Origin: Streptomyces sp. SM1
GTDB taxonomy: Bacteria; Actinomycetota; Actinomycetes; Streptomycetales; Streptomycetaceae
Length of the DNA: 32,438 nt
Direction: 5' to 3'
Assembly (NCBI RefSeq): GCF_002910825.1
Contig: NZ_NEUB01000579.1
Span: forward strand, 1-32,438
Made by a program: the position numbers and the translations under genes. The notes under the pieces were generated by a model, which was given only the letters and a program-made list of their open reading frames with translations, was not told where the DNA came from and ran no database searches. The stretch's first letter is position 1. Every line of letters starts with the position of its first letter. Positions 6,314 to 17,170 of this stretch are shown here, piece after piece.

Positions 6314-7417
6314 CTACTTGACGCCGAGGCCGGCGTCGTCGACGGCGGGCTCACCCGCGGCCTTCAGGACCTGGTTGAGCAGCGTGAGGTCGTAGATGCC
6401 CCTCAGGTCGGGCTCTTCCAGCAGGCCCGCCCTGACGGCGTGCTCCGCCTGCGAGCCGAGGGTGGCGGCCAGCGGGTCGTCGGTGAACCTGATCGACTTC
6501 CACGCCGGGTCGAGCACCTCGGCCGGCAACGCCTTGCCGGAGTCGGCCTCCAACTGCTTGTTGGCGGCGGCCTTCGCCTCCTCCGGGTTGGCGTTGATCC
6601 ACCGGTTGGCCTCGACGGACGCCTTCAGTACCGCCTCGACGGCCTTCGGGTGCTCCTCCAGGAACTCCTGTCGCACGATGATGTTCGTGATCACGAACTT
6701 CTCGTCCGGCCACAGCGTCGCCTCGTCCAGCAGTACCTTGCCGCCCTGCGCGACCAGCTTCGAGGCGGTCGGCTCCGGCACCCAGGCGCCGTCGATCGAC
6801 CCGGCCCTGAACGCGTCCGGGGTGACCTTGTTGGCGCTGCGGACCACCGTGACGTCGCCCGTGCCACTCTGGGCGTCGACCTTCCAGCCCTGCTCTGCCG
6901 CCCAGTTGAGGAACGCGACGTCCTGGGTGTTGCCGAGCTGAGGGGTCGCGATCCGTTTGCCCCTGACGTCCTTCAGCGACTTCACCCTGTCCGGGTTCAC
7001 CACGAGGCTCACCCCGCCGGACGCCGAACCGCCGATGATCCGCAGGTTCTTGCCGCCCGACTTGGTGTAGCCGTTGACGGACGGGGACGGGCCGATGAAA
7101 CCGATGTCTATGGAGCCGGAGTTGAGTGCCTCGATCTCGGACGGGCCTGCGTTGAAGACGGCGTACTTCGCTTCCGTGCCGCCCAGTTCCCTCTGGAACA
7201 GGCCCTTCCGGTTGCCCACCAGGGCGGTGCCGTGGGTGAGGTTGCCGAAGTAGCCGATCCGGACGGAGCCGAGTCCGTCGATCGTCTTCGCCCCGGCGGC
7301 GACCTTCACGGAGTCGTCGTCCTTCGCCTCGGACCCGTAGCCGCAGGCGGCCAGGGTGAGCAGCGGAAGCGCGGCTATCACCGCGAGGGTACGGCGCAGG
7401 GCGGTTGTGGCAGGCAC
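6314..7417 (-). CDS. ssuA: ABC transporter substrate-binding lipoprotein, SsuA type
   Basis: 367-aa periplasmic-binding-protein homologue anchored by lipid. The signal peptide ends in LTLAAC, with the lipidated Cys at residue 25 if translation begins at GTG 7417. AGAGGA lies 9 nt before that GTG, whereas the in-frame GTG at 7450 has a poorer site. The mature part follows the SsuA/TauA pattern: VRIGYFGNLTHGTALVG, IDIGFIGPSPSVNGY, LKDVRGKRIATPQLGNTQDVAFLNW and IDGAWVPEPTASKLV. It is the first gene of an ssuABC unit lying about 235 bp after cysN, with a strong hairpin between. No FMN-dependent sulfonate monooxygenase (ssuD) is present in the window. Confidence 0.92.
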   Translation of the reverse strand: MPATTALRRTLAVIAALPLLTLAACGYGSEAKDDDSVKVAAGAKTIDGLGSVRIGYFGNLTHGTALVGNRKGLFQRELGGTEAKYAVFNAGPSEIEALNSGSIDIGFIGPSPSVNGYTKSGGKNLRIIGGSASGGVSLVVNPDRVKSLKDVRGKRIATPQLGNTQDVAFLNWAAEQGWKVDAQSGTGDVTVVRSANKVTPDAFRAGSIDGAWVPEPTASKLVAQGGKVLLDEATLWPDEKFVITNIIVRQEFLEEHPKAVEAVLKASVEANRWINANPEEAKAAANKQLEADSGKALPAEVLDPAWKSIRFTDDPLAATLGSQAEHAVRAGLLEEPDLRGIYDLTLLNQVLKAAGEPAVDDAGLGVK

Positions 7418-7534
7418 GGGAGGTGTTCCTCTCGGAGGCCCGGCGGTCACGGTCTACTCAGGCCGTGGCCGGGAAGTCGGCAGGTTTTCGTCTACGGCGG
7501 CGGGGGGTGAGGGCGCGCGAGCGGTGCGCGTACG

Positions 7535-7653: not shown

Positions 7654-8988
7654 TCAGAAGTCCCATCCGTCGTCCTCTGCCTCGTCCTTGACGGGCTCCG
7701 GCGCGGCGAAGGATTCGCCGACCATGCCGGCGGTGAGGGTGGTGCCGTCGCCGGGGTCGATGAGGATGAAGGATCCGGTGCGGCGTGAGTCGGCGTAGGA
7801 GTCGGCGGGGAGGGGTTCGGCGGTGCGGATCTTGACCCGGCCGATGTCGTTGGCGGTGAGCCGGCCGGGGTGGGGGTGCAGGGACAGGTCGTCGAGGGTG
7901 AGGCGGGAGGGGATGTCCTTCACGATCGCCTTGACGGTGCGGGTGCCGTGTTTGAGCAGGACCCGGTGGCCGATGGCGAGGGGGGCGTCGGCGACGTGGC
8001 AGACGGTGGCTTCGACGTCCTGGGTGGTGGCGGGTGCGTCCTTGGTGGGGACGATGAGGTCGCCGCGGGAGACGTCGATGTCGTCGGCGAGCAGGAGTGT
8101 CACCGACTGCGGGGTCCAGGCGGTCTCGACGGGCTCGCCCAGCAGGTCTATCCCGGTGACCGTCGTGGTCCGTCCGGAGGGCAGGACGGTCACGGGGTCG
8201 CCCACGCGGAAGGTGCCGGCGGCGATCTGGCCGGCGTAGCCGCGGTAGTCGGGGTGTTCGGCGCTCTGCGGCCGGATGACGTACTGGACGGGCAGCCGGG
8301 CGTGGCAGTGGGCGAGGTCGTGGGCGACCGGGACGGTCTCGAGGTGATCCAGGACGGTGGGGCCGCCGTACCAGTCCATGTGTGCGGACGGTTCGACCAC
8401 GTTGTCGCCGGCGAGTGCGGAGATGGGGATCGCGGTGACGTCGGGGACGCCGAGTTCGGTGGCGTAGGCGGTGAACTCCTCGGCGATGGCGGCGAAGACG
8501 GGCTCGCGGTAGTCGACGAGGTCCATCTTGTTGACGGCGAGGACGACGTGCGGGACGCGGAGCAGGGCGGCGATGGCGGCGTGCCGGCGGGTCTGTTCGA
8601 CGACGCCGTTGCGGGCGTCGATGAGGATCACGGTCAGCTCGGCGGTGGAGGCGCCGGTGACCATGTTCCGCGTGTACTGCACATGGCCGGGGGTGTCGGC
8701 GAGGATGAAGCGGCGCCGGGGGGTGGCGAAGTAGCGGTAGGCCACGTCGATGGTGATGCCCTGCTCGCGTTCGGCCCGCAGGCCGTCGGTGAGCAGCGCG
8801 AGGTCGGGGGCTTCCTGGCCCCGGTTGGCCGACGCCCGCTCCACGGCCTCCAGCTGGTCGGTCAGGACCGACTTGGAGTCGTGCAGCAGCCGGCCCACCA
8901 GGGTGGACTTGCCGTCGTCGACCGAACCGGCGGTGGCGAACCGCAGCAGCGTGGTGGCCGCGAGCTCCTCGGTGGTGATGGTGCTCAT
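7654..8988 (-). CDS. cysN: Sulfate adenylyltransferase subunit 1 (GTPase)
   Basis: 444-aa GTP-hydrolysing subunit of ATP sulfurylase, which with CysD makes adenosine 5'-phosphosulfate (APS) from ATP and sulfate. It shows the translation-factor GTPase motifs: GSVDDGKST (21-29), DTPGH (99-103) and NKMD (154-157), followed by two beta-barrel domains (from about VLPSGRTTTVTGIDLLGE to FILIDPGDGTTLTAGMVG). It is the stand-alone CysN without a fused APS kinase, consistent with the separate cysC gene. ATG at 8988 lies 2 nt after the cysD stop, so the two subunits are co-translated. Confidence 0.97.
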   Translation of the reverse strand: MSTITTEELAATTLLRFATAGSVDDGKSTLVGRLLHDSKSVLTDQLEAVERASANRGQEAPDLALLTDGLRAEREQGITIDVAYRYFATPRRRFILADTPGHVQYTRNMVTGASTAELTVILIDARNGVVEQTRRHAAIAALLRVPHVVLAVNKMDLVDYREPVFAAIAEEFTAYATELGVPDVTAIPISALAGDNVVEPSAHMDWYGGPTVLDHLETVPVAHDLAHCHARLPVQYVIRPQSAEHPDYRGYAGQIAAGTFRVGDPVTVLPSGRTTTVTGIDLLGEPVETAWTPQSVTLLLADDIDVSRGDLIVPTKDAPATTQDVEATVCHVADAPLAIGHRVLLKHGTRTVKAIVKDIPSRLTLDDLSLHPHPGRLTANDIGRVKIRTAEPLPADSYADSRRTGSFILIDPGDGTTLTAGMVGESFAAPEPVKDEAEDDGWDF

Positions 8989-8990
8989 CT

Positions 8991-9926
8991 CTAGAAGTAC
9001 CCCTCGCGCTTGCGGTCTTCCATCGCGGCCTCGGACATGCGGTCGTCGGCGCGGGTCGCACCGCGCTCGGTGAGCCGGGAGGCGGCGATCTCGGTGATCA
9101 CCTTCTCGATGGTGTCGGCGTCGGAGTCCACCGCGCCGGTGCAGGACATGTCACCGACGGTGCGGTAGCGCACCAGCCGCTTCTCGACGCGCTCGCCGTC
9201 CTTCGGCCCGCCCCACTCACCGGCGCTCAGCCACATGCCACCGCGGGCGAACACCTCGCGCTCGTGGGCGTAGTAGATCTCCGGCAGTTCGATGCCCTCG
9301 CGGGCGATGTACTGCCACACGTCCAGCTCGGTCCAGTTCGACAGCGGGAACACGCGGACGTGCTCACCGGGGGCGTGCCGGCCGTTGTAGAGGTTCCACA
9401 GCTCGGGGCGCTGGCGGCGCGGGTCCCACTGGGAGAACTCGTCGCGCAGTGAGAACACCCGCTCCTTCGCGCGGGCCTTCTCCTCGTCGCGGCGCCCGCC
9501 GCCGAACACGGCGTCGAACCGCTCGCTCTGGATCTTCTCGGTGAGCGGCACGGTCTGCAGCGGGTTGCGCGTGCCGTCGGGGCGCTCCCTGAGCTCCCCG
9601 CGGTCGATGTAGTCCTGCACGGAGGCGACGTGCAGGCGCAGTCCGTGCCGGGCGACGGTGCGGTCCCGGTAGGCGAGGACCTCGGGGAAGTTGTGCCCGG
9701 TGTCCACGTGCAGCAGCGAGAACGGCACCGGCGCGGGCGTGAACGCCTTCAGCGCCAGGTGCAGCATCAGGATGGAGTCCTTGCCGCCGGAGAACAGGAT
9801 CACCGGCCGCTCGAACTCACCCGCCACCTCACGGAAGATGTGCACCGCCTCGGACTCGAGGGCGTCCAGGTGGGAGAGGGCGTACGGGCTGGCCGTGCCC
9901 TCCTCGACAGTGGCGACGGCTCTCAT
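8991..9926 (-). CDS. cysD: Sulfate adenylyltransferase subunit 2
   Basis: 311-aa catalytic subunit of ATP sulfurylase, an ATP pyrophosphatase of the PAPS-reductase-like superfamily. The PP-loop is SGGKDS (46-51); LHVDTGHNFPEVLAYRD, FGGGRRDEEKARAKERVFS and the C-terminal YRTVGDMSCTGAVDS and DRKREGYF are typical of CysD. The ATG at 9926 overlaps the cysC stop in ATGA. It forms the enzyme with the CysN encoded 2 nt downstream. Confidence 0.97.
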   Translation of the reverse strand: MRAVATVEEGTASPYALSHLDALESEAVHIFREVAGEFERPVILFSGGKDSILMLHLALKAFTPAPVPFSLLHVDTGHNFPEVLAYRDRTVARHGLRLHVASVQDYIDRGELRERPDGTRNPLQTVPLTEKIQSERFDAVFGGGRRDEEKARAKERVFSLRDEFSQWDPRRQRPELWNLYNGRHAPGEHVRVFPLSNWTELDVWQYIAREGIELPEIYYAHEREVFARGGMWLSAGEWGGPKDGERVEKRLVRYRTVGDMSCTGAVDSDADTIEKVITEIAASRLTERGATRADDRMSEAAMEDRKREGYF

Positions 9927-10489
9927 GCCAGTCCCCTTTCGCTGAGCAGGGCGTACACCGACGCCGCGGACTCCTGCACGGTCCGGTTCTGCGACTCGAT
10001 CCGCAGATCGGGCGTCTCCGGCTCCTCGTAGGGGTCGTCCACCCCGGTGAGCCCGGTGAGTTCACCCGCGGCCTGCCTGGCGTACAGACCCTTCACGTCG
10101 CGTACGGAGCACACCTCGACCGGGGTCGCCACGTGCACCTCGACGTACGCCGTGCCGTTCGCCGCGTGCCGTTTGCGCACCGCGTCCCGGCTGTCGGCGT
10201 ACGGGGCGATCACCGGGACGAGCGCGGTGACGCCGTTGCGGGCGAGCAGTTCGGCGACGAAGCCGATGCGCTGCACGTTGGTGTGCCGGTCCTCGCGGGT
10301 GAAGCCGAGGCCCGCCGAGAGGAACTCGCGGATCTCGTCGCCGTCGAGCACCTCCACCCGCCGGCCCCGCTCGCGCAGCCGGGCGGCCAGTTCGTGGGCG
10401 ATGGTGGTCTTGCCCGCACTCGGCAGACCCGTGAGCCAGACGGTGGCTCCGGTCGTCACGTCGGTCTCCTGGATCTGAGGGTTCGTCAT
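9923..10489 (-). CDS. cysC: Adenylylsulfate (APS) kinase
   Basis: 188-aa APS kinase that phosphorylates APS to PAPS. The P-loop GLPSAGKTT (21-29), the EVLDGDEIREFLSAGLGFTREDRHTN segment that binds APS, and the YVEVHVATPVEVCSVRDVKGLYARQ lid region are all present and at normal spacing. Start ATG 10489 overlaps the cysH stop in ATGA, and its own stop overlaps the cysD start in the same way. The CysH here has the Fe-S cysteines of APS reductases, so CysC is probably not on the direct route to sulfite but supplies PAPS for sulfotransferases, or a branch of reduction. Confidence 0.95.
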   Translation of the reverse strand: MTNPQIQETDVTTGATVWLTGLPSAGKTTIAHELAARLRERGRRVEVLDGDEIREFLSAGLGFTREDRHTNVQRIGFVAELLARNGVTALVPVIAPYADSRDAVRKRHAANGTAYVEVHVATPVEVCSVRDVKGLYARQAAGELTGLTGVDDPYEEPETPDLRIESQNRTVQESAASVYALLSERGLA

Positions 10490-11196
10490 CCGTGCAGCCC
10501 GCACTCGGTCTTGGCCCGGCCCGCCCAGCGTCCGGCGCGGGCGTCCTCGCCCTCCAGCACCCGGCGGGTGCAGGGCGCGCAGCCCACGGAGGCGTAGCCG
10601 TCCGTCAGCAGCGGGTTGGTGAGCACGCCGTGCTCGGCGACGTAGGCGTCCACGTCGTCCTGGGTCCAGCGGGCGATGGGGGAGATCTTCACCTTCCGCC
10701 GCTTCTCGTCCCAGCCGACGACCGGGGTGTTCGCCCGGGTGGGGGACTCGTCGCGGCGCAGACCGGTCGCCCAGGCCTGATAGCCCTTCAGGCCCTCCTC
10801 CAGCGGCCGCACCTTGCGCAGCGCGCAGCACAGGTCGGGGTCGCGGTCGTGCAGCTTCGGGCCGTACTCCGCGTCCTGTTCGGCGACCGTCAGCCGCGGG
10901 GTCAGCGTGATGAGGTTGACGTCCATCACGGCCCCGACCGCGTCCCGGGTGCCGATGGTCTCCGGGAAGTGGTAGCCGGTGTCGAGGAACACCACGTCCA
11001 CGCCGGGCAGTACCCGGGAGGCGAGATGGGCGACCACCGCGTCCTCCATCGAGGAGGTCACGCAGAAACGGCTGCCGAAGGTCTCGGCGGCCCACCGGAG
11101 GATCTCCAGGGCGGAAACGTCCTCCAGGTCCCGGCCCGCCCGCTCGGCCAGCTCTCTCAACTCCGCCGTGCCGCTCTCCTGCCGAACCGCCGTCAT
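10486..11196 (-). CDS. cysH: Phosphoadenylyl/adenylyl-sulfate reductase (4Fe-4S APS reductase type)
   Basis: 236-aa reductase that converts APS (or PAPS) to sulfite using thioredoxin. The motifs are FCVTSSMEDAVVAHLA and VDVVFLDTGYHFPETI for nucleotide binding, then the 4Fe-4S ligands C123-C124 (DLCCALRKVRP) and C206/C209 (GCAPCTRR), and the C-terminal catalytic Cys in TECGLHG. The four ligand cysteines mark the assimilatory APS-reductase class rather than the cluster-free PAPS-reductase class. ATG 11196 overlaps the preceding small gene in ATGA, with GAGGGGA 8 nt upstream; a longer upstream frame is not needed. Confidence 0.95.
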   Translation of the reverse strand: MTAVRQESGTAELRELAERAGRDLEDVSALEILRWAAETFGSRFCVTSSMEDAVVAHLASRVLPGVDVVFLDTGYHFPETIGTRDAVGAVMDVNLITLTPRLTVAEQDAEYGPKLHDRDPDLCCALRKVRPLEEGLKGYQAWATGLRRDESPTRANTPVVGWDEKRRKVKISPIARWTQDDVDAYVAEHGVLTNPLLTDGYASVGCAPCTRRVLEGEDARAGRWAGRAKTECGLHG

Positions 11197-11372
11197 GTCC
11201 GGTCCCCTCCCGTGTCGGCTCGCTCGAGTCCCCGGGCCAGCAGCCCGAGGAACTTCAGCTGAAAGGCTCGGTTGCACGCTCCGCATTCCCACGTCCCGTG
11301 GCCCGCCTCCCCCGGAAGCAGGTCCTCGTCACCGCAGTAGGGGCAGTGGAACGGCGCGGCGCGCTCGCTCAC
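11193..11372 (-). CDS. 59-aa double-CxxC (zinc-ribbon-like) protein of the cys operon
   Basis: GTG at 11372 gives a 59-aa protein starting MSERAAPFHCPYCGDEDL, with CPYC (C10, C13) and CGAC (C30, C33) forming a rubredoxin/zinc-ribbon-like knuckle pair, then FQLKFLGLLARGLERAD. Both ends are locked into the operon: the GTG overlaps the sulfite reductase stop as GTGA, and its own TGA overlaps the cysH ATG as ATGA. A hypothetical protein at this place is a regular part of Streptomyces sulfate-assimilation clusters as I know them; its function is not established. Four cysteines at this spacing should bind zinc or iron. It could be a redox partner, an assembly factor or a sensor. Confidence 0.9.
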   Translation of the reverse strand: MSERAAPFHCPYCGDEDLLPGEAGHGTWECGACNRAFQLKFLGLLARGLERADTGGDRT

Positions 11373-13084
11373 GACAGCGCCTCGTCCGCGGCACGGCCGA
11401 CCCAGGCCGCGAACCGCTCGCCGTCCTCGCGATCCGCCTGGAAGCGCTTCACGACCCGCTCGATGTAGTCGGGCAGTTCGTCCGAGGTCACCTTCAGACC
11501 GCGGACCTTGCGCCCGAACGACGGCTCCAGACCGAGTGCGCCGCCCAGGTGCACCTGGTAGCCGCCGACCTGGTTGCCGTCGGCGTCGGTGACCAGCTGG
11601 CCCTTGAGCCCGATGTCCGCGGTCTGGATGCGGGCGCAGGCGTTCGGGCAGCCGTTGATGTTGATGGTGAGCGGCTCGTCGAAGTCGGGGAGACGGCGCT
11701 GCAGTTCGTCGATCAGGTCGCTGCCGCGCTCCTTGGTCTCGACGATGGCGAGCTTGCAGAACTCGATGCCGGTGCAGGCCATCGTGCCGCGGCGGAACGG
11801 AGAGGGGGTGACCCTCAGGTCCAGCGCCTCGAGGCCGTCGACCAGGGAGTCGACCCGGTCCTGCGGAACGTCAAGGATGATCATCTTCTGCTCGACGGTG
11901 GTGGAGACCCGGCCCGAGCCGTGGTTCTCGGCCAGTTCGGCGACCTTGGTGAGCAGCGAGCCGTCCATGCGGCCCACGCGCGGGGCGAATCCGACGTAGA
12001 AGCGGCCGTCCTTCTGGCGGTGCACCCCGATGTGGTCGCGCCACCGCTGGGCCGGCATCTCGACGGCGGGGCCGTCGGTCAGCTTGCGGCCCAGGTACTC
12101 GTCCTCCACGACCTGACGGAACTTCTCCGCGCCCCAGTCGGCGATCAGGAACTTCAGCCGGGCGCGGTTGCGCAGCCGGCGGTAGCCGTAGTCGCGGAAG
12201 ACGGAGGTCACGGCCTCCCAGACGTCCGGCACGTCCGCCTCGGGCACCCAGGCGCCCAGCCGCACACCGAACTTGGGGTTGGTGGACAGACCGCCGCCGA
12301 CCCACAGGTCGAAACCGGGGCCGTGCTCGGGGTGGACCACGCCGACGAAGGAGATGTCGTTGATCTCGTGCGCCACGTCGAGCAGCGGGGAGCCGGAGAC
12401 GGCCGTCTTGTACTTGCGCGGCAGGTTGGAGAAGCGCGGGTCGCCGATGTACCGGCGGACGATCTCGTCGAGTGCCGCAGTGCCGTCGATGATCTCGTCC
12501 GCGGCGACCCCGGCGACCGGGGAGCCGAGCATGCCGCGCGGGCAGTCGCCGCACGCCTCGGTGGTGGACAGGCCGACCGACTCCAGGCGCTCCCAGATGG
12601 CGGGTACGTCCTCGATACGCACCCAGTGGAACTGGATGTTCTGCCGGTCGGTGATGTCGGCGGTGCCGCGGGCGTACGTCTCGGCGACCTCGCCGATCAC
12701 CCGCAGCTGCTCGGTGCTGAGCCGGCCGCCGGTGACGCGCACCCGCATCATGAAGTACTCGTCCTCGAGCTCCTCCGGCTCCAGCAGACCGGTGCGCCCG
12801 CCGTCGATCCCGGGGCGGCGCTGCGTGTACAGGCCCCACCAACGGAAGCGCCCCCGCAGGTCGTTGGGGTCGATGGAGGCGAACCCGCGCTTGGAGTAGA
12901 TCGTCTCAATACGTGTCCGCACATTGAGACCGTCGTCGTCCTTCTTGAACTGCTCGGCACCGTTGAGCGGGGTCAGGTGCCCCACGGCCCACTGTCCCTC
13001 TCCGCGGTGACGGCTCACCTTGCGGCGGGGAGTCGCGGCGGCAGGCTTCTGCGCGGCGGCAGGGTTCTGCGGGGTGGCGGCCAT
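11369..13084 (-). CDS. sir: Sulfite reductase (ferredoxin-dependent, sirohaem/4Fe-4S)
   Basis: 571-aa NirA-type hemoprotein that reduces sulfite to sulfide with electrons from ferredoxin. It has the tandem ferredoxin-like halves of the family: YFMMRVRVTGGRLSTEQL and TADITDRQNIQFHWVRIED in the first, FYVGFAPRVGRMDGSLL in the second. The sirohaem/4Fe-4S ligands are C437 and C443 (ACTGIEFC) and C479 and C483 (NGCPNAC). Start ATG 13084 has GAAGGA 10 nt upstream. A nitrite reductase is the usual alternative in this family, but placement at the head of cysH-cysC-cysD-cysN with a sirohaem chelatase gene downstream settles it. A short cysteine-containing leader ORF precedes it by 129 bp. Confidence 0.95.
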   Translation of the reverse strand: MAATPQNPAAAQKPAAATPRRKVSRHRGEGQWAVGHLTPLNGAEQFKKDDDGLNVRTRIETIYSKRGFASIDPNDLRGRFRWWGLYTQRRPGIDGGRTGLLEPEELEDEYFMMRVRVTGGRLSTEQLRVIGEVAETYARGTADITDRQNIQFHWVRIEDVPAIWERLESVGLSTTEACGDCPRGMLGSPVAGVAADEIIDGTAALDEIVRRYIGDPRFSNLPRKYKTAVSGSPLLDVAHEINDISFVGVVHPEHGPGFDLWVGGGLSTNPKFGVRLGAWVPEADVPDVWEAVTSVFRDYGYRRLRNRARLKFLIADWGAEKFRQVVEDEYLGRKLTDGPAVEMPAQRWRDHIGVHRQKDGRFYVGFAPRVGRMDGSLLTKVAELAENHGSGRVSTTVEQKMIILDVPQDRVDSLVDGLEALDLRVTPSPFRRGTMACTGIEFCKLAIVETKERGSDLIDELQRRLPDFDEPLTININGCPNACARIQTADIGLKGQLVTDADGNQVGGYQVHLGGALGLEPSFGRKVRGLKVTSDELPDYIERVVKRFQADREDGERFAAWVGRAADEALS

Positions 13085-13213
13085 GGTTGATACGTCCTTC
13101 GGGGCAGGCGTGAATACGTCTCTGACCTGCGCATTCAGGCGCACGGTGGGAGTGCGCGTCATCGCGCGGGGAGTGAGGTGAAGAGGGAAATGCCGGGCGG
13201 TGCCGGGGTGCTC

Positions 13214-13297
13214 TCAGCGCGCCGGACAGATGGCGCTGGACATGCGGCCGAGGTCGACGTGCCGCCGACTCACCAAGGCGATTCCAGTTCCAGGCAT
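13214..13297 (-). CDS. Cysteine-containing leader peptide upstream of sulfite reductase (27 aa)
   Basis: ATG 13297 opens a 27-codon ORF whose core reads SRRHVDLGRMSSAIC followed by PAR and stop. This R-x-H-V/I-D-L-x-R-x-x-x-x-x-C pattern is the hallmark of the short 'putative leader peptides' found before sulfur-metabolism operons in Streptomyces and relatives. In mycobacteria, comparable cysteine-containing upstream ORFs control the genes behind them in response to cysteine. By analogy, ribosomes stalling or slowing at the Cys codon near the stop would raise sir expression when cysteine is low; this is inference here. An internal GTG at 13273, with GGAA upstream, is an alternative start. The sir ATG follows the stop by 129 nt. 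Confidence 0.85.
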   Translation of the reverse strand: MPGTGIALVSRRHVDLGRMSSAICPAR

Positions 13298-13335
13298 GGC
13301 GGAAGCCTGGCACGGCCGTCTGGACACAGTCCACC

Positions 13336-13364
13336 GTTATCCGAAATGTGGACACCCTTGTCTC
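13336..13364 (-). promoter_or_regulatory. Predicted promoter of the leader-sir-cys operon
   Basis: On the minus strand GAGACA (13364-13359), 17 nt, then GATAAC (13341-13336) form the best -35/-10 pair between the leader ORF and the upstream GNAT gene. This predicts a transcript start near 13329 and a 5' leader of about 30 nt before the leader ATG. A small inverted repeat TGGAC-ACA-GTCCA covers 13321-13333, at the predicted start. The -35 lies inside the left arm of the large palindrome. Confidence 0.45.
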
Positions 13365-13386
13365 GAAATGAGAGACAAGGGTGTCC
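13350..13386. promoter_or_regulatory. 15-bp perfect palindrome: operator of the sulfur operon or terminator of the GNAT gene
   Basis: GGACACCCTTGTCTC (13350-13364) and its exact complement (13372-13386) flank a 7-nt spacer. It overlaps the predicted -35 of the operon, so repressor binding there would block transcription. The inner GTCTC-N7-GAGAC is comparable in form to half-site repeats bound by sulfur regulators in other actinobacteria, such as McbR of Corynebacterium, but no regulator is encoded nearby. The other reading is a transcription terminator 38 bp after the GNAT stop. Both may apply. Confidence 0.6.
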
Positions 13387-13424
13387 TTGGTCACAAGAGC
13401 CGCGCGCGGTCTTGCCGGTGCCGG

Positions 13425-13997
13425 TCAGGCCGGGTAGGCCCCCGGCCACGGGCCCGGAGCCGGCACCTCCGGTTCGTTCTCGACCTTGGTGTCGAAGAGG
13501 GTGAAGCCCCGGCGCCGGTAGTTGTCCATGGCGTGCTCGCCGTCCTTGCTGCAGGTGTGCAGCCACACCCGCGTGGTCGGCTTCAGCCCCGGCCAGCGGT
13601 CCGCCAGGTCCCAGGCGCGGGCCGTGCCGTACGACAGCAGGTGACCGCCGATGCGCCGCCCGCGGAAGGCGGCGACGAGACCGAAGTAGACGATCTCGAC
13701 GACCCCGTCCTCCTGCGCCTCCAGCTCCACGTACCCCGCCGGCGTCCCGCGGTCGAGGGCGACCCACGTCTCCACCCCCGGCCGGTCCAGATGCTCCAGC
13801 CACTGCGCGTACGTCCAGCCCAGCCGGTCGGTCCAGCGGATGTCACCGCCGACCGACGCGTACAGGAAACGGCTGAACTCGGGCGAGGGCACCTCGGAGC
13901 GGACCACCCGCACATCCCCCTCGGGCGCGGCGGCCGGACGGAGATCGGTGGGAGCGGTCTGCTCCAGGGACCAGGTGGTCACGGAGAGGGTCGTCAT
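13425..13997 (-). CDS. GNAT family N-acetyltransferase
   Basis: 190-aa acetyl-CoA-dependent acyltransferase of the GNAT superfamily. The acetyl-CoA loop is AAFRGRRIGGHLL (motif A, Q/R-x-x-G-x-G/A), preceded by the beta-strand VVEIVYFGLV and followed by VWLHTCSKDGEHAMDNYRRRGF, the motif B region in which the product strand and the 'YRRRGF' turn are typical. The substrate cannot be told. TACCTT (14009-14004) lies 6 nt before the ATG at 13997, with no Shine-Dalgarno sequence, which suggests a leaderless mRNA. It faces the same way as the sulfur operon downstream but is separated from it by the 15-bp palindrome, so it is probably not part of it. Confidence 0.88.
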   Translation of the reverse strand: MTTLSVTTWSLEQTAPTDLRPAAAPEGDVRVVRSEVPSPEFSRFLYASVGGDIRWTDRLGWTYAQWLEHLDRPGVETWVALDRGTPAGYVELEAQEDGVVEIVYFGLVAAFRGRRIGGHLLSYGTARAWDLADRWPGLKPTTRVWLHTCSKDGEHAMDNYRRRGFTLFDTKVENEPEVPAPGPWPGAYPA

Positions 13998-16993: not shown

Positions 16994-17074
16994 CCTGGTG
17001 GACCGCCGGGGACTGTTTGAAGATTGAGCGACGCCGTCCCGAGCGGCGTCCACGGCTCTCAAGGGGCCCGTGCG

Positions 17075-17112
17075 GCGGGGGTGGTGCCGTGTCGGCGCAG
17101 CACCACCCCCGC
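17075..17112 (-). terminator. 13-bp perfect hairpin downstream of the acyl-CoA dehydrogenase
   Basis: Arms GCGGGGGTGGTGC (17075-17087) and its complement (17100-17112) with a 12-nt loop. It lies about 130 bp past the stop of the minus-strand dehydrogenase and before the GAF regulator promoter, so it is probably the terminator for the former. Confidence 0.6.
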
Positions 17113-17170
17113 GTTCGCCTGCCGGCCGGACCTGCGCGCGCGGCACGGGGTGCGGCTTGCTGCGCGTCGG

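Follow-up and report, generated by a model that had tools for sequence, protein, structure and literature searches.

The window, by which we mean the whole 32,438-nucleotide stretch of Streptomyces sp. SM1 DNA that was analysed, carries on its minus strand a 27-codon open reading frame (ORF; 13214..13297) that encodes MPGTGIALVSRRHVDLGRMSSAICPAR*, ends in TGA and matches the family profile NF042934. Its single Cys codon (hereafter the motif Cys, and the proposed sensor codon) is a UGU at 13226..13228 on the same strand, which is codon 24 of 27 and is followed by three codons (PAR) and then the stop. From the leader stop it is 129 nt to the start (13084) of sir, a gene of the sulfite/nitrite reductase family (11369..13084, minus strand; Pfam NIR_SIR and NIR_SIR_ferr) that is preceded by the Shine-Dalgarno sequence GAAGGA (13095..13100, minus strand), for which 75 of 79 orthologues match at all six positions. 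The original prediction, which named no strand, had proposed an ORF with one Cys codon just before its end, 129 nt ahead of sir, and all of these elements are found on the minus strand from 13297 to 13214. The start that it had picked at 13297 is also the conserved one (ATG in 79/79 parsed loci).

Two other readings of the region were considered. A plus-strand reading of 13214-13297 yields a translation unrelated to the leader peptide and was rejected. An in-frame GTG at 13327 would give a 37-amino-acid form, which was discarded since stop codons close the extension in many orthologues, whereas the ATG at 13297 is conserved.

The leader heads an operon of at least six genes, as had been predicted, all on the minus strand. 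Beyond sir are cysH, for phosphoadenylyl-sulfate reductase (10486..11292, the exact start being approximate; NF002537, 267.5 bits, cut-off 154); an ORF (9923..11095) with an adenylyl-sulfate kinase (APS kinase) domain at residues 203-389 (TIGR00455, 191.5 bits, cut-off 138.7), the true start of the kinase being internal to this ORF; cysD, for the sulfate adenylyltransferase small subunit (8991..9926; TIGR02039, 453 bits, cut-off 396.6); cysN, for the large subunit (7654..8988; TIGR02034, 540 bits, cut-off 336); and a gene for an SsuA-family aliphatic sulfonate binding protein (6314..7450; TIGR01728, 200.5 bits, cut-off 163.5). Past the SsuA-type gene the same strand continues with ORFs for an ABC ATPase, a permease and a CbiX-domain protein. 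From the gene layout we infer that the sir-cys genes form one transcript. A scan of the window with Rfam found nothing at the leader, and its sole match was the sRNA Scr6106 (RF02827) at 17031-17115 on the plus strand (91.8 bits, gathering score 52.5). The leader peptide has no match in Pfam.

Conservation of the sir leader and its proposed promoter

An alignment of the region across Streptomyces, which had been suggested alongside the original prediction, bears the ORF out. The motif was present ahead of sir in 81/81 loci, namely the window and the closest 80 of 581 confirmed sir relatives, all from Streptomyces. The window and 78 of these loci (79/81) could be parsed as far as the sir start, the pattern for the sir N-terminus having missed L022 and L023, and in 79/79 parsed loci the leader has an ATG start, 27 codons and TGT at codon 24, with 114-200 nt between leader and sir. 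More broadly, an even sample of the order gave a peptide match in 99/99 genomes, 84 of them from the same genus at E<=6.7e-8, and of 20 loci fetched from the lower-scoring part of that genus, 18 showed sir downstream by pattern. Distant genera of the order carry leaders such as MSRAGIALVSRRHVDYGRLSSMVC, with sir downstream in several.

The silent sites of the sir leader are nearly fixed as well: fourfold sites are 98% conserved in the leader (6 sites) vs 77% in sir (135 sites) across 55 loci. The codon for Arg 11 (window 13265-13267) is CGG (67) or CGA (12) in 79/79 leaders and never CGC or CGT, in contrast to Arg 18, for which CGC and CGT are used; a purine in the Arg 11 codon would suit a hairpin with GTCGAC four codons downstream. 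Two further Streptomyces sir leaders (L237 and L238) stop right after the motif Cys (...SSAMC*), and the old tail sequence persists behind the new stop.

Promoter-like elements stand immediately ahead of the leader. A proposed -35 element, TGGACT (13328..13333, minus strand), recurs in 75/79 sir leaders, and 18 nt after it comes a proposed -10 element, CAGGCT (13304..13309, minus strand), located 6 nt before the ATG. Of the 79 leaders, 73 have CACGCT as the -10 string and 4 have CAGGCT, TG is present at -15/-14 in 78/79, and a Shine-Dalgarno-like string before the leader start was seen in 0/79. For S. lividans, a passage of PMC8079986 gives 17% leaderless transcripts, a -10 element of the form TAnnnT and a mean distance from -10 to start of 6.3 nt. 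Because the -35 and -10 elements are conserved at a distance like that in S. lividans, and no Shine-Dalgarno sequence accompanies them, the transcript probably begins at the leader ATG or right beside it and would be leaderless. Family-wide, among the matches listed, a -10-like string occurs at the right distance in 84/154 leaders, a Shine-Dalgarno sequence alone in 20 and neither in 50; a -10 string preceded 48/780 chance start codons in a control, against which each family leader was allowed several starts.

Other sequence features share this upstream region (window 13320-13385). A palindrome, TGGACTGTGTCCA, extends over the -35 element, and GGAC/GTCC words are repeated in many orthologues. 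A near-perfect inverted repeat at about 13351-13385 is likely the end of an acetyltransferase gene. It is possible that the palindrome and repeat words serve as the operator of a repressor.

A leader family with a near-fixed UGU codon

The profile NF042934 is catalogued as 'putative leader peptide' (cis_reg_atten), and its cut-off of 27 is passed both by the 27-amino-acid form of the leader (32.9 bits) and by the 37-amino-acid form (31.6 bits), so leaders of this kind are already known to the databases. By this score the leader is a member of the family, whose motif, size and place agree with it, and no difference was found; the entry covers the peptide alone, and the fixed UGU codon and the spacer are absent from it. 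Leaders of the family occur before varied sulfur genes. The genome from which the window derives has four matches above the cut-off, including the sir leader, and the best downstream ORFs of the other three encode a sodium:dicarboxylate symporter-family protein, ThiS with cysteine synthase, and a rhodanese. Each of the 41/41 Streptomyces genomes examined has 3-13 family matches, and an even sample of the phylum gave a match in just 11/149 genomes (8 above the cut-off). In another genus of the order (g119), there are 5-7 sir-type leaders per genome among the genomes listed (G235, G236, G239, G241, G243, G249, G253, G255, G257 and G259).

A clear sulfur function was found downstream in 18 of the 28 family loci with a downstream ORF tested: cysteine dioxygenase (7), sulfatase (3), ThiS/cysteine synthase (2), rhodanese (2), SsuA-like protein (2, below NCBIfam cut-offs), dimethylsulfone monooxygenase (1) and sulfite reductase (1). 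The remaining 10 lack a clear sulfur link and comprise luciferase-like proteins (3), the symporter family (2), DUF4395 (2), a 2OG-Fe oxygenase, a family-5 solute-binding protein and one ORF without any match.

For codon analysis we used a set of 155 places with 97 distinct peptides among the matches listed for the window's genome, the Streptomyces genomes and the phylum sample, from which L350 was dropped, as it does not reach the Cys column, leaving 154 members. The set leaves out about 20 matches at 31.4 bits, almost all of them sir-type leaders, which are counted apart, and one further listed match is also absent. Coarse grouping divides the 154 members into 12 subfamilies, and a Fisher test on their Cys codons ignores this kinship. 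Since a protein profile was the means of search, the codons themselves were not selected.

The motif Cys is encoded by TGT in 150/154 members among the matches listed and by TGC in 4/154 (L333, L338, L342 and L352). Other cysteines of the same leaders are TGC in 160 cases vs TGT in 32, and 108 leaders among the matches listed combine TGT at the motif with TGC elsewhere. By place, the counts are 54 TGC and 5 TGT at column 12, 36 and 9 at column 17, and 34 and 0 at the fourth residue past the motif. The sir genes themselves use TGC 397 times and TGT 6 times. TGT also occupies the motif position in 30/30 mycobacterial sir-type leaders, in 40/40 order-level loci found with a wider regular expression and in 30/30 further Streptomyces loci. 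The base that follows TGT varies (C 111, T 30, A 8 and G 5 among the 154 listed members), which makes a longer fixed RNA word unlikely. L338 and L342 have in common the variant VRRRHVDFRRVASAVC, with TGC at the motif Cys.

The tRNA for cysteine (anticodon GCA) reads UGU by wobble, perhaps more slowly. The constraint on this codon fits a sensor codon, and it suggests that UGU could be the cell's read-out of cysteine supply. We found no description of UGU in leaders of this family in the passages retrieved from the open full-text literature, and the same passages yielded no account of a family-wide UGU combined with the sharp composition change at the stop that is described below.

The peptide is also strongly constrained, although the profile itself accounts for part of the amino-acid invariance. 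Among the 154 listed members, R6 and R13 are invariant (154/154) with five codons each, CGN and AGG, and D10 (153), L11 (152) and H8 (147) are nearly so. The motif Cys lies 0-7 codons from the stop in 151/154 of them, with zero codons in 14, and the stop is TGA in 145/154. Because the motif Cys is so near the stop, ribosomes waiting at UGU and ribosomes terminating would be nearly co-located; with almost identical positions, it should therefore be dwell time, not position, that matters. A run of regulatory codons is absent, there being one Cys codon in the leader, and a plain codon-counting attenuator is perhaps too simple a description, because the peptide ahead of that codon is nearly invariant.

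Proposed mechanism and alternatives

The composition of the RNA changes abruptly at the leader stop. The spacer at 13101..13213 (minus strand) is C-rich and G-poor (45% C and 23% G in the window). From the leader stop to the sir Shine-Dalgarno sequence, C exceeds G in 79/79 orthologues (median C/G 1.85), and over the first 90 nt past the stop it does so in 153/154 family members among the matches listed (median 1.72). C minus G is 0.02 over the final 30 nt of the ORF and jumps to 0.22 over the 30 nt that follow. Control regions with the sir zone excluded have a median C/G of 1.06 on the 3' side of genes (3.3% at >=1.7, n=363) and 1.15 on the 5' side (10% at >=1.7, n=289); regions upstream of other genes lean the same way, more weakly, with C>G in 61%. 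Mycobacteria show this skew weakly, with a C/G of 1.03-1.67 (median 1.22) across 13 of their sir leaders. Rho typically loads on RNA that is rich in C and poor in G, and the composition of the spacer fits a Rho-loading (rut-like) region, as which we propose it.

A scan of window positions 12950-13450 found no intrinsic terminator between the leader and sir on either strand, and the one terminator-like match in this interval lies upstream of the leader. Neither RNAalifold on 58 sequences nor single folds produced a consistent alternative structure. The genome of the window has a rho gene (665 bits); a point against a Rho step is that rho is dispensable in some Streptomyces.

A cysteine reading of the leader is likely. 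The original interpretation as a cysteine leader is partly supported, by membership in NF042934 at the head of sulfate-assimilation genes and by the constraint on the Cys codon, but it had missed that this codon is a rare and nearly fixed UGU, that the peptide ahead of it hardly varies and that the transcript is probably leaderless. We see about an even chance for the following mechanism, in which a leaderless upstream ORF responds to cysteine and thereby governs the sir-cys operon. Transcription would start at the leader ATG or right beside it, as the promoter elements indicate, and the 27 codons of the leader would be translated. Under a shortage of Cys-tRNA, the ribosome would wait at the single UGU, and the nascent R-x-H-V-D-L-x-R segment in the exit tunnel would probably prolong the wait. 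The waiting ribosome could shield the C-rich, G-poor RNA behind the stop from Rho, and RNA polymerase would then enter sir. When cysteine is plentiful, the ribosome would pass UGU, end at UGA three codons on and leave, whereupon Rho might load on the exposed RNA and halt transcription before sir.

It is important to note that two observations speak against a uniform model for the whole family. One is the weak skew in mycobacteria. The other concerns a large subfamily, the leaders of the WRRVHMDL[VL]RYAGC[VM]C type, which precede cysteine dioxygenase in 7/7 cases tested (L108, L119, L121, L122, L138, L139 and L143) and which end in a further Cys that is TGC in 34/34 at that position. Cysteine dioxygenase should not be switched on by a shortage of cysteine because the enzyme breaks cysteine down. 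Either the sign of control is reversed for these leaders, or the enzyme is used for sulfur release, or their signal is something other than Cys-tRNA.

A different proposal is translational attenuation, in which the leader RNA pairs with and hides the sir ribosome-binding site until stalling of a ribosome at the Cys codon exposes it. We judge this unlikely, but both translational and Rho-type readings are possible for the sir leader. Cysteine attenuation with a hidden ribosome-binding site was reportedly described for M. smegmatis by Canestrari in 2020. In the passages seen of PMC13236596, the mycobacterial relatives, including the cysteine genes of M. smegmatis, are described as translational and not transcriptional attenuators, and the unusually fixed codons of the sir leader would fit RNA pairing. 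We examined this idea by partition-function folding of 79 Streptomyces sequences in which a stretch the size of a ribosome was masked at each codon in turn. A ribosome whose A site holds the Cys codon brought no predicted release of the Shine-Dalgarno sequence (mean change in accessibility just +0.002); accessibility rose by >0.1 in 1 sequence and fell by >0.1 in 4. The same simulated stall freed the Shine-Dalgarno sequence in 2 of 13 mycobacterial sir leaders (L156 and L157, about +0.3 to +0.5) and gave negative results for the other 11. Because the folding of GC-rich RNA is error-prone and this mycobacterial control was mostly negative (11/13), the folding is weak evidence against masking. 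A further difficulty is that UGU is the last codon in 14/154 leaders, where stalling and terminating ribosomes would cover nearly the same RNA.

Alternatively, the leader might be an arrest peptide like TnaC that senses a small sulfur molecule (cysteine, a precursor or sulfide), such that UGU just sets the place of the pause. This we regard as distinctly improbable, since an arrest peptide by itself offers no reason to prefer UGU over UGC, and we know of no ligand for such a peptide. The near-invariant R, H, D, L and R speak for it, and under this reading the direction of the response could vary between subfamilies, which the cysteine dioxygenase leaders would require. If UGU occupies the A site, then counting back from the residue in the P site puts R6, D10 and R13 at distances of 12, 8 and 5. 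By our calculation, W12, D16 and I19 of TnaC (residues named in a passage of PMC10941005) are equally far from P24, which may be a coincidence.

Strong amino-acid conservation could also denote a small protein with its own function, for which regulation of sir is incidental, but the fixed place before sir and varied sulfur genes, the fixed UGU, the stop right after the motif and the variable tail make this a very remote prospect. It is scarcely credible that the ORF arose by chance and that what is conserved is an element of the DNA or RNA: synonymous sites of the sir leader are indeed fixed too, yet the ORF spans 27 codons without a frameshift in 79/79 loci, and the same peptide is written with other codons in paralogues and in other genera.

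Relation to known leaders and significance

The cysteine-sensing leader proposed here resembles several known systems. The claim that mycobacterial counterparts tie expression to cysteine is in accord with passages of PMC13236596 and PMC4633059. Mycobacterial leaders of the Ms4527A type likewise lie ahead of sir (13 of 30 loci could be parsed, with sir downstream in 13/13), share the motif R-R-H-[IV]-D-[LF], use UGU at the last motif Cys in 30/30 and are probably leaderless. However, they have three or four Cys codons (polycysteine) rather than one, and the skew of C over G past the stop is stronger in the Streptomyces leader. Against the Ms4527A profile (NF042936), the leader scores 28.2 bits, below the cut-off of 45.

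The TnaC leader of the E. coli tna operon resembles the sir leader in some features. As portrayed in parts of PMC10941005, it is a short peptide whose fixed residues lie close to its end, with a UGA stop and Rho-dependent control; a rut site directly follows the tnaC stop, and the arrested ribosome blocks Rho. In TnaC the arrest takes place at the stop codon, is brought on by excess free Trp and serves breakdown genes, whereas for the Streptomyces leader we propose a shortage of Cys-tRNA that acts at a sense codon ahead of biosynthetic genes. In 2005, Seliverstov predicted cysteine leaders that lack terminators in mycobacteria, Propionibacterium and Bifidobacterium, and suggested a tna-like Rho mechanism while terming the prediction rather weak (PMC1262725, in part). 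Those leaders also have Cys codons near the stop and no terminator hairpin, but they contain runs of Cys codons, and the passages seen report no cysteine leader from Streptomyces. The uORFC-8-2 motif, found before cysS in Rhodobacterales, is another predicted cysteine-sensing leader ORF at a cysteine-related gene; according to the passages seen of PMC8632094, it differs in having two tandem Cys codons, mostly UGC, and an intrinsic terminator, and it comes from another phylum.

Extended to the family as a whole, our proposal would be that UGU has been kept because tRNA-Cys reads it slowly, such that one codon might replace a polycysteine tract, and that a conserved, arrest-like peptide places this single Cys codon a few codons ahead of the stop. 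The 3-13 leaders of each Streptomyces genome could then together make up a sulfur regulon run by ribosomes. We put forward only tentatively, and with some doubt, this picture of a family defined by one wobble-read UGU, a Rho region guarded by a paused ribosome and a genome-wide set of copies that acts as a regulon.

A leader with a single Cys is a simpler model than polycysteine leaders. Changing UGU to UGC alters one base and leaves the peptide the same, and this substitution separates codon speed from peptide sequence. The finding also bears on the workings of attenuation in bacteria with leaders that have no terminator; to judge from the portions seen of PMC1262725, this question dates from at least 2005. 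If the proposal is true, the speed of a single codon would set sulfate assimilation in Streptomyces.
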